A stretch of 64,000 nt of DNA from Thermoproteota archaeon. Its GTDB lineage: Archaea; Korarchaeota; Korarchaeia; Korarchaeales; Korarchaeaceae. The notes under the pieces were generated by a model, which was not told the DNA's origin, ran no database searches, and worked only from the letters and a program-made list of their open reading frames with translations. The position numbers and the translations under genes were made by a program. The stretch covers positions 124,001 through 188,000 of the forward strand of contig JAOZFN010000011.1 in the NCBI GenBank assembly GCA_027492205.1, in the 5' to 3' direction. This document shows, one piece after another, positions 10,583 to 16,073 of this stretch (within the stretch, counting starts at the first letter, position 1; every line of letters starts with the position of its first letter).

Positions 10583-11857
10583 CTACCCCTCGGCCCTTCG
10601 TCTCCTCCCCCACCTTATCTTTGCGGTGAGTATCTTCTCGGAGGAGAATATCCTGTCGGCCACCGCGGCAACCCCCAGCGTCCAGGCGCAGAGGTAGAGG
10701 ACGCTGGCGGCGTAGGCACCCCAATCCCTCCACACCAGGGCCTGAGACGCGAGGGCCAAGTGAGAGAACGGAATCGCCTGCAGCGCGAGCGCCGCGGCCC
10801 TGGGAAGAGACCGAATGTCGGCGAACATGAGCAGAAACGCCGGCAGGAAGACCAAGACGAACAGGTTACTCACCAGCGCCTGGGCCGATCTCACGTCCTC
10901 GGTGAAGGCCGCCAGGACCGTGGCCAGCGTCAGGGCGAGCATGTTGGCTGCGACCAGCGAAACGCCGAGGGCGACGACCTCTCTGGGCCCCAGCAGGCTC
11001 AGCTCCGCCGTGGGGCCCTCGGCGCCGGCGGGAGTGACCACCCTCATGTAGTAGACGAGCCCCGCGATTACGCCCGCGCTGCCGAGAGTGGCCACGACGG
11101 CTGATCCTGAGAGCTTGGCCAGGAGTATGCTCCTCCGGCTCACGGGGAGCGTCAAAAGCGTCTCAAGCGTCTTCTCCTCCTTCTCAACCGCGATCGAAGT
11201 TGCCGCGATCTGCATCGCGAATATCAGAACAAGGGAGGCCACCATGGGCAGCATGGTCGCCTGCCCCGCGATCGCTCCCGCGACGGCGTCGGGCGGGACG
11301 TCGAGCACCTGCCCCCTGAACACCGAGGAGTAGGAGACCTGGAGCGGGTCGAGCACCGCCTGCGGATCCGAGACACCCAGCTCCTCCACTAGGGCAGACG
11401 CGAGCGCCTGGGAGGCGGCGTCTATGGCCCCGCCGAGCCTGCCCGTGAACATGACGGAGGAGAACCCTCCCCTCTCGAAGAAGACGGTGACCCTCACAGG
11501 GATCCTCTCTCCGGACCTGAGGGACTCTCCAAATCCTTCGGGAATCTCTATCAGGGCCCCGGCCCCTAGGGACAGGGCCTCCCGCATCGCGTCCTCCGGC
11601 GACGTGACCTCGAGCACGGTCCCGGTGGCCTTGAGCGCGGCGACCACGACGGCCGACTCCCTGGAGTGGTCGAGGTCCAGCACCGCGACGGGCGTGGTGA
11701 GGGCGGTCCTCTCGGCCGCGGACATCGAGGCCCGGGTGGCGAGCCCTATCACGGGGTAGAGGATCGTTGGCAGCAGGATCATCCCCACCAGGATCTTCGG
11801 GTCGCGAAGGAGGTCGAGGACCTCCTTCCTGACCAGGCTCCTCAGCGCCCCGCTCAT
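10583..11857 (-). CDS. NatB-like ABC-2 permease
   Basis: This 424-residue protein matches the NatB/ABC-2 layout: cytoplasmic start (VRKEVLDLLRDPKILVGMI), helix 1, a large external domain (residues 45-210), then five or six helices with VEKEEKTLETLLTLPVSRR between helices 2 and 3. NatAB exports Na+ in Bacillus, but relatives carry other substrates. The start overlaps the stop of the ATPase gene by 4 bp. It is a second exporter, convergent with the one at 8377-10538. Confidence 0.88.
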   Translation of the reverse strand: MSGALRSLVRKEVLDLLRDPKILVGMILLPTILYPVIGLATRASMSAAERTALTTPVAVLDLDHSRESAVVVAALKATGTVLEVTSPEDAMREALSLGAGALIEIPEGFGESLRSGERIPVRVTVFFERGGFSSVMFTGRLGGAIDAASQALASALVEELGVSDPQAVLDPLQVSYSSVFRGQVLDVPPDAVAGAIAGQATMLPMVASLVLIFAMQIAATSIAVEKEEKTLETLLTLPVSRRSILLAKLSGSAVVATLGSAGVIAGLVYYMRVVTPAGAEGPTAELSLLGPREVVALGVSLVAANMLALTLATVLAAFTEDVRSAQALVSNLFVLVFLPAFLLMFADIRSLPRAAALALQAIPFSHLALASQALVWRDWGAYAASVLYLCAWTLGVAAVADRIFSSEKILTAKIRWGRRRRAEG

Positions 11858-12582
11858 ACGGCCGCCACCCCCACGAAGACCTCCTCGAGGTCGCCGGCGC
11901 TGTACTTGGCCTTCAGCTCAGAGGGCTCGCCCTCTATCAGCAGCCTGCCCCTGTGCAGGAGCCCGACCCTGTCGCACAGCCTCTCGACCTCCAGCATGTT
12001 GTGGCTCGACAGTATCACGGTCAACCCCTTCTCATCCACGTACTCCCTGATCACCCTCCTGACGTGGTGGGCGTGTATCACGTCCAGCCCGCTGGTGGGC
12101 TCGTCCAGTATCGCGAGCCTGGGCCTGACCATGAGGGCCCTGGCCAGGGTGAGCCTCCTCTTCATGCCCCTGCTGTAGGTCTTGACCCTGTCCCTTATCC
12201 TGTCGCCGAGCGCGGCTATCCGGACGCCCTCCTCCACCATCTCCTCCAGCTCGGACTCGTCCCTGGCGTAGAAGGAGGCCATGAACTTCAGGAACTCCAG
12301 ACCCGAGAGGTTCCGATAGGCGCCGGCCTCCTCAGGGAGGTAGCTCATCACCGCCCTGGCCTCCTCAGGCCTCTCCAGCACGTCTATGCCAAAGACCTCG
12401 ACCGAGCCGGAGTCAGGCCTCAGGAGGGTGGCGATTATTCGCAGGGTCGTGGTCTTTCCGGCGCCGTTGGGTCCAATCAGGCCGTAGATCTCTCCCTGGT
12501 TTACGACGAGGTCCAGTCCCTTGAGGGCCTCCACCTTGCCGTAGCTCTTGTGGAGGCCCCTCACCACCACGCTCGGGGGCAT
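11854..12582 (-). CDS. NatA-like ABC transporter ATP-binding subunit
   Basis: This 242-residue ATPase has Walker A GPNGAGKTTTLR, signature YSRGMKRRLTLARA, Walker B LAILDEPTSGLD and the switch His in VILSSHNMLEVERLC. The signature variant YSRGM is the normal one for NatA-type exporters. It is first in a two-gene operon with the permease at 10583-11857. Upstream, an AT-rich GGTTAAAGC at about 12607-12615 may be its promoter. The substrate is not predictable from sequence. Confidence 0.92.
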   Translation of the reverse strand: MPPSVVVRGLHKSYGKVEALKGLDLVVNQGEIYGLIGPNGAGKTTTLRIIATLLRPDSGSVEVFGIDVLERPEEARAVMSYLPEEAGAYRNLSGLEFLKFMASFYARDESELEEMVEEGVRIAALGDRIRDRVKTYSRGMKRRLTLARALMVRPRLAILDEPTSGLDVIHAHHVRRVIREYVDEKGLTVILSSHNMLEVERLCDRVGLLHRGRLLIEGEPSELKAKYSAGDLEEVFVGVAAV

Positions 12583-12667: not shown

Positions 12668-13795
12668 TTACCCCTCGACCTCGGCGGGCATGAACAGCCC
12701 GACTATGGTCTTGATGCCGAAAGTCTGGATGACGTTCAGCATGAACGCCAGAAACCCTAGGGTGAGCAGGGCGCCGAAGAACGCGGCTGACGCCATGTAG
12801 GGCAGGTAGGCGTCGGTGAAGTAGAGGGTCCTCCTGGCATCCCGCCGCTCCAGGCCAGCCCCATCGAGAACGACATCCCTATGCCGCCGATCGTTCACAG
12901 CCAGAAGTGGAGGTTGCCGAAGGTCTTGCTCTTCAGCTCCGTCCCTGTGAGCATGGGCGTCAGCGCGTAGATGGCCGCGAAGAGTATGCTGCTGAGTCCT
13001 GTGAGGAGCATCTAGTGGACGTGGAACCCAGGCCCCACTGGGTGTTGTGCAACACCGTGTTGAGGGCGTAGTTTGCCTGGAGGAGGCCGGCCATGCCGCC
13101 GAGCAGGAATCCCGTGATTCCTCCCACCATGAACTTGACCGGCAGGGTCAGCTTGACGGGTCTGGCGAGCCAGAGCGTCATCAGCGCGGCGAAAAACGTC
13201 AGGCCCAAGGTGAAGCCCTCGCCCCAGGTGATGAACTGACCGACACGAGCCTCAGGATCGTGGGCTGAGGCCTGTCGGAGAGCAGGTGGTGGCTCCAGAC
13301 CCCCATGGATATTATCAGGTCGGCTAGGACGACGTACCTAACGAACTCCTCGCCGTACAGCTTTCTCCCCGCCAGGAGCGGCGCGAGCAGGTAGAGGGTC
13401 CCGGCAGTCCAGATGAGGACGTCGCCGTCGGCTATCATGTCCAGGCCCCCACCAGTAGATGTTCTTGTAGATCAGCGGGTCGATGACGAGTGGGTCGAGC
13501 CCCCCGGCGAACGCCCTGTGGAGGGTGAACCCAGCTATCAGGGCGCCTGCTCCAGCCAAGACGAACGCGTTGATCACGGCGTCGATAGATCCCCTGAACA
13601 CGGGCAGCTTCTGCTCCTGGCCGCCGTCTGGAAGCGTCGGCCTGGATGGCTCGAGGCCGAGGCCCAGCGGGATTCTCCTCCTGGCCCCCCTGAGCGCCCT
13701 GACGAGCCCACCTAGTCCGGAGGAGGCCACGAACAGGCTGACCAGGGTGGCCCTGCCGGTGAGGTCTGGTGGGAAGCGGCCCAGTATCGTGGCGA
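12668..13795 (-). pseudogene. Heme-copper oxidase subunit I, heavily decayed
   Basis: Minus-strand segments in different frames assemble into an oxygen-reductase subunit I. They are: GRFPPDLTGRATLVSLFV and a helix; IYKNIYWWG, then MIADGDVLIWTAGTLYLLAP; VWSHHLLSDRPQP; a break near 13210; ALMTLWLARPVKLTLPVKFM and NTVLHNTQW; an in-frame TAG (13013-13015) beside FHVH; MLLTGLSSILFAAIYALTP and NLHFWL; a TGA where Trp is expected (NLHFWL-stop-TIGGIG); then YFTDAYLPYMASAAFFGALL to a final TAA-type end near 12668. The conserved heme and Cu ligand regions (WSHHLLSDRPQP, HNTQW, FHVH) are still readable. The N-terminus is missing. The gene cannot make a working oxidase, and no subunit II is nearby. Confidence 0.88.
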
Positions 13796-13944
13796 GTCAA
13801 GGTTATAACTTCTGTGGAGACCCTCATGAAGGTCGGGAGCAAGCTGCTCGGGGATCTGGTGCCCTGAAGCCGGGGGGCGGCGCGGATCATTCGTCTATAG
13901 GATTCGTTCCAATCTGTTTAGTTCCTAGCGTCTGACAAACCTCG

Positions 13945-14338: not shown

Positions 14339-14374
14339 CTAATTATTTCTCAGCGGGCACGTCCGCGCGTGCCC
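14339..14374 (+). promoter_or_regulatory. Promoter and palindrome on the Lrp start codon (likely autoregulation)
   Basis: A TATA box (TAATTATTT, 14340-14348) lies about 25 bp before the GTG start at 14369. Between them and across the start codon is a perfect inverted repeat: GGGCACG (14355-14361) and CGTGCCC (14368-14374), spacer 6. A regulator bound here would block RNA polymerase at the transcription start, the usual mode of Lrp autoregulation in archaea. Confidence 0.6.
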
Positions 14375-14872
14375 GTGAGGCTGGACGAGCTCGACCTCAA
14401 GATCTTGGCCTTGCTGTCTAGAGACGGCAGGATCCCTCTCTCGAGGCTCGCAGAGAAGTTGAGGGTGCCCAGGACAACCGTGAACTCCAGGCTCCTCAGA
14501 CTCAGGGAGGAGGGGGTGCTTGAGGGTTTTAGGGCCGAGATACCCCCGGACAAGCTGGGATACAAGCTCGTCGCGTTCGTCCTGGTGAAGGTCAGGAGGA
14601 CCAGGCCCGTCGACGGGATGTCCAACCAGGAGGTGTTGGCGAGATCCCTGGTCAGACAGACGGCTCAGGACCCCTCCCTCCCCTGGGTTGAGGAGGCTCA
14701 CATAATCACCGGGGAGTACGACCTCCTCCTCAAAGTCCGAGCCAGGGAGCTAGACCAGCTCACGAGGTTTCTAATAGCCCACATGGCTACACATGACGAC
14801 GTGGTACAGACCCACACCCTCTTGGCCCTGGAGACGGTCCACGAGGATCACACCCCTCCCCTGAGGCCCTAA
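14369..14872 (+). CDS. Lrp/AsnC family transcription regulator
   Basis: This 167-residue protein has an N-terminal helix-turn-helix (LDELDLKILALLSRDGRIPL, recognition helix PRTTVNSRLLRLREEG). A RAM-type ligand-binding domain follows from about residue 65, with an insertion (residues 80-105) and the strand IITGEYDLLLKVRARE. Family members form dimers to octamers and sense amino acids. The next gene is an asparagine synthetase-like enzyme, a plausible target (inference). The GTG start agrees with the TATA spacing, giving a leaderless mRNA whose start lies within the palindrome. Confidence 0.93.
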   Translation: MPVRLDELDLKILALLSRDGRIPLSRLAEKLRVPRTTVNSRLLRLREEGVLEGFRAEIPPDKLGYKLVAFVLVKVRRTRPVDGMSNQEVLARSLVRQTAQDPSLPWVEEAHIITGEYDLLLKVRARELDQLTRFLIAHMATHDDVVQTHTLLALETVHEDHTPPLRP

Positions 14873-15011
14873 CACTTCGACGATCTCTAGACCTTGCCAC
14901 GGGAATATAGACGATTAATTCTCCGTGATACTTCATAAGAGACGCCCATCTCCCGCAATATGGCCTCAAGATGACGACAACGGTTTTATCGGCGTTCGGC
15001 CGGGAGGCTGG

Positions 15012-16073
15012 GTGACCGGAGGGGTGCCTGAGACCTCAGCGATCCACCCGTCCGTCGCCAGGTTTGTCGAGGCCTCCAGACAGGGTTCCCGCTACCTGAG
15101 GGAGCTGGAGAGAAAACTATCCAAGCCGCACGTCGTCGCCAGGAGTGAGCGGGCCAGGGCCGTTCTGAGGGTCCAGGCGATCGCCCTGAGCGCCATCCGG
15201 GAGTTCCTCGACTCTCACGGATTCATAGAACTCCTCCCACCCATATTGGGGCCCGTTACGGATCCGGGGATCAGGGGGGCCGGGCAGGTCGTGGTCGACT
15301 ACTACGGCTGGCCCTACAGGGTGATGAGCAGCGCCATCCTGTACAAGCAGGCCGCCGCCTCGGCCCTCGGGAGGATCTACTTCGTGTCTCCGAACGTGAG
15401 GCTCGAGCCCCCGGAGGCGGCCCTCACCGGCCGGCACCTGGCGGAGTTCGTCCAGGTCGACGTAGAGGGCTCCGGGATGAGCTACGAGGAGGTCATGGAT
15501 CTGGTAGAGGGACTGCTGAAGCACGTCGTGGCCGTCGTGAAGGGGGAGGCGTACAGGGAGCTAGAGATCCTCGGGAGGGATCTGCCGGACTGCTCGGACC
15601 CCTTCCCAAGGCTCACCCACTCGAGGGCCGTGTCGATGCTCCGCTCCCTGGGCGTCGACGCTGACGAGGCGTCGGAGATCCCCTGGGATGGGGAGGTGAT
15701 CCTCTCCGGGCTGTTCAGGTCACCCTTCTTCATCACCGACTACCCGCTGGGATCCAGGGGGTTCTACGACCGGGAGGACCCCGAGCGGCCGGGGGTCCTG
15801 AGGGACTTCGACCTCATCTACCCGGAGGGGTTCGGGGAGGCGGCCAGCGGGGCGGAGAGGGAGTACGAGTATGAGAGAGTCCTCGCCAGGCTGAAGGCCT
15901 CGGGAGAGGACCCGGAGGAGTACGGCTGGTACCTGGGCATGCTCGCGGACGGGATCAAGCCGACGGCCGGCTTCGGAATAGGCGTCGAGAGGCTGACGAG
16001 GTTCCTCTGCGGCCTCGGCTCGGTCTGGGAGGCCAGGCTCTGTCCTAAGGTTCCGGGGGTCTACTCGCCCTGA
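15012..16073 (+). CDS. AsnRS-like asparagine synthetase (archaeal AS-AR type)
   Basis: The 353-residue product is a class II aminoacyl-tRNA synthetase catalytic core without an anticodon-binding domain. Visible class II features are motif 2-like LAEFVQVDVEGSGMSYEEVM and motif 3-like GIKPTAGFGIGVERLTRFLCG. Archaeal paralogues of this kind are known to make asparagine from aspartate, ammonia and ATP. The region FITDYPLGSRGFYDREDPER matches the active-site stretch of AsnRS/AspRS. I place the start at the GTG at 15012, because a TATA box (GTTTTATC, 14983-14990) lies 25 bp upstream and family alignment starts soon after. Confidence 0.85.
   Translation: MTGGVPETSAIHPSVARFVEASRQGSRYLRELERKLSKPHVVARSERARAVLRVQAIALSAIREFLDSHGFIELLPPILGPVTDPGIRGAGQVVVDYYGWPYRVMSSAILYKQAAASALGRIYFVSPNVRLEPPEAALTGRHLAEFVQVDVEGSGMSYEEVMDLVEGLLKHVVAVVKGEAYRELEILGRDLPDCSDPFPRLTHSRAVSMLRSLGVDADEASEIPWDGEVILSGLFRSPFFITDYPLGSRGFYDREDPERPGVLRDFDLIYPEGFGEAASGAEREYEYERVLARLKASGEDPEEYGWYLGMLADGIKPTAGFGIGVERLTRFLCGLGSVWEARLCPKVPGVYSP

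Follow-up and report, generated by a model that had tools for sequence, protein, structure and literature searches.

What did a broken heme-copper gene once do in a korarchaeon, and by what route was it lost? The question is raised by the minus strand of positions 12668-13796 in the 64,000-nucleotide stretch of DNA analysed here (the window), which comes from a member of Korarchaeum cryptofilum's family that belongs to a different genus. An earlier note, made from the letters alone, had read the locus as the wreck of an oxidase with an oxygen site and had suggested that oxygen respiration was recently lost, or else that an acquired oxidase had left a remnant. In the current work, we find that the locus is the remnant of a heme-copper superfamily subunit I gene that was recently inactivated. 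We further propose, at a probability of roughly three in four, that its product was subunit I of a nitric oxide reductase with two subunits and of quinol type, gNOR-like as judged by its residues and by published descriptions, with nNOR as a possible assignment.

The remnant and the extent of its damage

The window genome is a 1.94 Mb draft in 17 contigs, 96% complete. In a profile search of the whole genome, PF00115 (COX1) matched the locus in three pieces (E values of 1.7e-11, 1.6e-9 and 5.9e-7), and no second PF00115 match was obtained elsewhere in it. When five intact relatives (L007-L011) were compared with the window by tblastn, E values of 1e-69 to 1e-100 were returned over 13796-12680, which excludes a chance match. 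A frameshift-aware alignment to one of the intact proteins (L010, 528 residues) shows that the pseudogene (12668..13796, minus strand) corresponds to residues ~153-528, with 363 codons aligned at 74-75% identity to intact genes; the first ~152 codons have no counterpart. Thus, relative to intact orthologues, the frame is disrupted and both the N-terminal part and the partner gene are deleted, subunit II being absent from the 96% complete assembly.

The same alignment places four frame changes in the remnant, near 13448, 13243, 13034 and 12837, together with a 5-codon in-frame deletion. The block at 13244..13448, with a frame change at both ends, holds helix VI (LDMIADGDVLIW) and, in frame 2, helix VII (WSHHLLSDRPQP). 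The next (13035..13241) ends in HNTQW, in frame 1. A third (12838..13032) carries the heme-ligand motif FHVH in frame 0, as well as both in-frame stops, TAG at 13014-13012 and TGA at 12897-12895. The C-terminal block (12668..12835) still ends at the original stop codon (12670-12668). All of these are on the minus strand. The HH pair and FHVH are therefore readable in the remnant; the region of H53 has been deleted.

Much of the earlier description stands on these data. The motifs are indeed scattered, three of them over three frames; at least two in-frame stops had been seen and two were located; the N-terminus is missing; and the neighbouring genes are intact, at 97-99% amino-acid identity and gap-free against the sister species. 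Frame changes had likewise been recognized, although their number is four and not about three. The decay was also rightly called mild. Thus, over 293 aligned codons, 71 of the 72 family-invariant positions are unchanged, which makes the decay recent, and the remnant shows nonsynonymous-type change modestly above that between pairs of intact genes. The constraint on the gene was lost recently.

Deletions and relics across the Korarchaeaceae

The earlier note had proposed a check of related genomes for an intact copy, and such copies exist. Five members of K. cryptofilum's genus (L031-L035), deposited as Thermoproteota or Crenarchaeota MAGs, carry norI-norII as an intact cluster, accompanied by an HTH_10 regulator in divergent orientation; the subunit I gene is absent from the genome of K. 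cryptofilum itself. The intact locus, about 2.87 kb long, has the order subunit I, subunit II, divergent regulator. Its comparison with the window reveals a deletion junction at 13797..13816, where about 1.7 kb has gone: subunit I residues 1-152, subunit II, the divergent promoter region and nearly all of the regulator. What is left of the regulator is its last 16 codons, ETLMKVGSKLLGDLVP, and the stop (13817..13867, plus strand). A single deletion in the window lineage took all of these parts at once, and what it spared carries the frameshifts and stops. Intact synteny anchors surround the site, namely an ABC-2 permease (10583..11857, minus strand) that is 98% identical in the sister species, an ABC transporter ATPase (11854..12582, minus strand) lying outside the system, and an Lrp/AsnC-type regulator (14369..14872, plus strand).

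The sister species (G001) tells of a different deletion. Its nearby flanking DNA is 95-97% identical to the window, and the equivalent of window 12658 to about 13814 is missing, with 48 bp in its place, so that the whole operon is gone. Those 48 bp and the next 52 encode the regulator end GARELAKKLGISKAYLSETLMKVESKLLGDLVP and its stop, ~33 regulator codons; in a family-wide search, the best matches of this relic outside the genus were regulators adjoining intact operons and, in addition, that of G015. Since the window genome keeps subunit I with less of the regulator, whereas G001 has none of subunit I and more of the regulator, neither arrangement can have arisen from the other. The genus ancestor carried the cluster, and the two species lost it through different deletions. 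The idea that the remnant was inserted as a mobile element was discarded, both species keeping NOR-linked regulator tails of different length at the site.

Relics were also found further afield. In G015, which belongs to K. cryptofilum's genus, a regulator from residue 58 is fused to subunit I from residue 479 (L106 3482-4071); this is a third deletion, with the same arrangement and at the locus common to its relatives, and it represents a second stage of decay in that genus. A third genus (G004) retains a heavily eroded subunit I fragment of 49 residues at 69% identity (L119 6447-6596). The earlier note's alternative, a remnant of an acquired oxidase, is conceivable. However, because regulator relics occur in both species of the window's genus and another relic in a third genus, the cluster was resident before the species split.

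Two side observations concern the neighbourhood. Just beyond the site of the remnant, G001 has a second deletion (L098 around 12381-12385; window 14496-15289), through which the AsnC-type regulator lost its end and an AsnRS-like gene its start; the broken remnant has in-frame TGA codons, whereas the window copies are intact. Window 14925-16073 encodes a class II synthetase-core protein whose only match is tRNA-synt_2, and which is conceivably an AsnRS paralogue of the archaeal asparagine synthetase type, not a tRNA synthetase. As to the host, a methane-metabolizing lifestyle was rejected, as no McrA was found in the window genome; another family member (G008) does have McrA.

How the genus came by the cluster is a separate matter. 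The genus ancestor might have gained it horizontally, with a Korarchaeum-genus relative as one conceivable donor, before the loss set in, as opposed to its inheritance from the family ancestor. Such a gain would fit the flanking genes, which differ between the window's genus and the Korarchaeum-genus loci, the patchy presence in the family, and the distribution of distant relatives: a pattern-based scan with one genome per species returned relatives at 43-49% identity from Chloroflexi, Omnitrophica, Nitrospirae, Nitrospinota and one other archaeon (a plasmid search returned ordinary oxidases only, at ~25% identity). It fits less well that, in a tree of the remnant's blocks, the remnant forms the sister branch of the intact Korarchaeum-genus clade (only 75% bootstrap for the monophyly of that clade) and thus branches outside all intact Korarchaeum copies, that relics occur in three genera, and that the GC content of the remnant is like that of its host (63.7% versus 64.4% for the window). 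We consider horizontal gain possible, yet less likely than inheritance. It would bear on the origin alone and would conflict neither with the decay nor with a nitric oxide reductase identity, to which we now turn.

Active site, putative electron donor and probable lost activity

The five intact proteins have about 529 residues, are 81-97% identical to the first of the set, and score 219 bits against PF00115. H53, H325/H326 and H415/H417 are invariant across 14 aligned family sequences, and the HH pair of helix VII is kept in HHLL(S/A/G)D. Helix VI, in contrast to that of oxygen reductases, is changed at its core: with LxYxNxxW of this helix as a gap-free anchor, the oxidase HPEVY aligns to D(M/L)(I/V)AD. 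Thus, D275 occupies the position of the CuB His and D279 that of the active-site Tyr, both being invariant in 14 of 14 members, and the same replacements are seen in helix VI of the remnant. Tyr is also absent from the C-type position after HH, and the A-type K-channel position is not Lys; the controls for these helix VI/VII comparisons were two A-type oxidases only. Neither a CuB His in helix VI nor a Tyr for the cross-link, be it in HPEVY or at the C-type position of helix VII, is therefore available as in an oxygen reductase. In the intact loci, subunit I is preceded by a gene for a cupredoxin-like subunit II with a weak COX2 match. Where the control COX2 has NHAF...QCREYCGLLHYNM, the family has TYGF...RSTEYSGPEHPYM, and the CuA Cys and first His are replaced. 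Quinol oxidases likewise have no CuA.

The gNOR and nNOR families were reportedly defined by Murali et al. in 2024. A published table assigns gNOR an active-site D and a cupredoxin subunit II (PMC8756737), and gNOR has been described as the quinone-oxidizing norGH (PMC8906906). Compared with that table, the family has Asp at the active-site position (D279), along with D275 at the CuB His position. The operon, which is intact in the relatives and absent from the window, consists of two subunits, the second of cupredoxin type, and would be served by a quinol donor. It departs from cNOR and qNOR, with Asp where they require Glu and with a cupredoxin-like subunit II.

Given that Asp replaces both the His and the Tyr of HPEVY, that the C-type Tyr is missing and that subunit II has no CuA, the lost activity is more likely to have been the reduction of nitric oxide than that of O2. 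The intact enzyme would take electrons from quinol and reduce NO at a centre made of heme b and a non-heme metal, the latter coordinated by two His and an Asp. Its main role would be NO detoxification, since nitrite reductase was not found in korarchaeal genomes: no NirS or NirK turned up in those tested. Seven of the eight Nitrospirota/Nitrospinota genomes carrying the family have a NirS- or NirK-family match, six being strong or near the cut-off and that in G070 only partial, and this co-occurrence speaks for NO reduction.

Could the gene nevertheless be what is left of an oxygen reductase, in a lineage that lost heme-copper oxygen respiration? Superfamily membership and the heme ligands are clear, and the nearest solved structures, by profile and by fold, are oxygen reductases (A-type and bo3, some ba3). 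These searches, however, cannot tell NO reductases from O2 reductases, and such an outcome is expected because, to our knowledge, no gNOR structure has been deposited in the PDB. The predicted structure matches oxidases with query TM scores of 0.70-0.76; the AlphaFold model of the intact protein has a mean pLDDT of 73.8, with residues 273-280 around helix VI falling below 50, which leaves the geometry of the metal site uncertain. The substitutions of helix VI, found in every aligned member, together with the missing C-type Tyr, the subunit II without CuA and a set of bd-type oxidase genes that is still intact, make an oxygen reductase improbable. In this respect the earlier reading of an oxidase with an oxygen site does not agree with the family, which is devoid of oxygen-reductase features.

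Two further explanations deny that the gene is broken or that the fragment is idle. Sequencing or assembly error in a gene that is intact in the organism might be suspected of a 17-contig draft, but we give it very little credence: it would have to create a 1.7 kb deletion and to leave subunit II out of an assembly that is 96% complete, the gap-free flanking genes tell of no general indel noise in the assembly, and at this very site the sister species shows a deletion unlike that of the window. Re-use of the fragment in the form of short functional proteins, one or several (a domesticated membrane fragment), is just as hard to credit, for all that 71 of 72 invariant residues persist, in that the stops and frame changes leave pieces of ~80 residues with the metal-site helices split, and nothing of the fragment survives in the sister species.

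Retained putative defence genes and comparison with known systems

Having argued for the loss of a putative nitric oxide reductase, we would note what the host retains. The earlier claim of a lost oxygen respiration is not upheld, as the window genome has adjacent CydA and CydA' genes of bd type, both intact, and a flavodiiron O2/NO reductase whose best solved match (1ycf, E 2e-57) was deposited as a nitric oxide reductase. These genes and one for peroxiredoxin share a 6 kb stretch outside the window (G000:C17 about 67.4-73.6 kb; L107 1408-7562), apparently a defence cluster against O2, NO and peroxide. The flavodiiron protein occurs in 20 of 24 family genomes, and in 14 of the 14 of good quality. 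In G006, another genome of the family, several in-frame stops interrupt a flavodiiron-like gene (C86 1161-2291), which is possibly decaying or the product of a low-quality assembly. Because the flavodiiron protein and CydA/CydA' are retained, removal of O2 and NO is not expected to have been abolished, and the loss would have been tolerated with these two covering NO and O2. On a wider scale, the chances seem about even that the ancestor of the Korarchaeaceae had a membrane NO reductase which is being discarded time and again in independent events, through distinct deletions that extend over operon and divergent regulator alike, while the soluble flavodiiron and the bd enzymes assume its role.

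Korarchaeota figure among the lineages without heme-copper enzymes in a 2025 survey (PMC7618691). Contrary to that listing, the Korarchaeaceae carry, or carried, heme-copper enzymes of NO-reductase type. Such enzymes are known elsewhere, and the remnant and the intact Korarchaeum-genus copies add to a known kind. The case also shows that oxygen respiration need not have been lost where an anaerobe carries a broken 'oxidase'. Moreover, the family offers a graded series for the parallel loss of a respiratory cluster, from intact operon through fresh wreck, fused tails, eroded fragment and regulator stub to nothing. Outside the archaea, NOR-type heme-copper genes were observed in Nitrospinota/Nitrospirota MAGs (L045-L052; L049 2552-4081 is from Nitrospinota). 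A 2024 comparative study reported norBC as absent from all Nitrospinota (PMC10839748), and the NOR-type family may go unrecognized there.

Set against known systems, the CydAA' bd-type oxidase and the flavodiiron protein are alike in function, in that anaerobic archaea use them to remove O2 and/or NO; they belong to unrelated protein families and are intact in the window genome. The A-, B- and C-family oxygen reductases share with the family the fold, the heme ligands (H53, H415 and H417) and the paired histidines (HH) in helix VII, and differ from it in possessing a helix VI CuB His, an active-site Tyr (at the A/B or the C position), the A-type K-channel Lys and CuA in subunit II. The cNOR and qNOR enzymes are NO-reducing members of the superfamily that also have no catalytic Tyr, although their active-site residue is Glu and not Asp, and neither the cytochrome c subunit of cNOR nor the fused quinol domain of qNOR is present here. 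Closest is gNOR (norGH; Hemp & Gennis 2008, Murali et al. 2024), likened here through published features and not reference sequences. The window copy differs from it in being a pseudogene without a partner, in a korarchaeal host; the family resembles it in the heme-copper fold, the active-site Asp, the two-subunit operon, the cupredoxin-type second subunit without CuA and the quinol donor to be expected.
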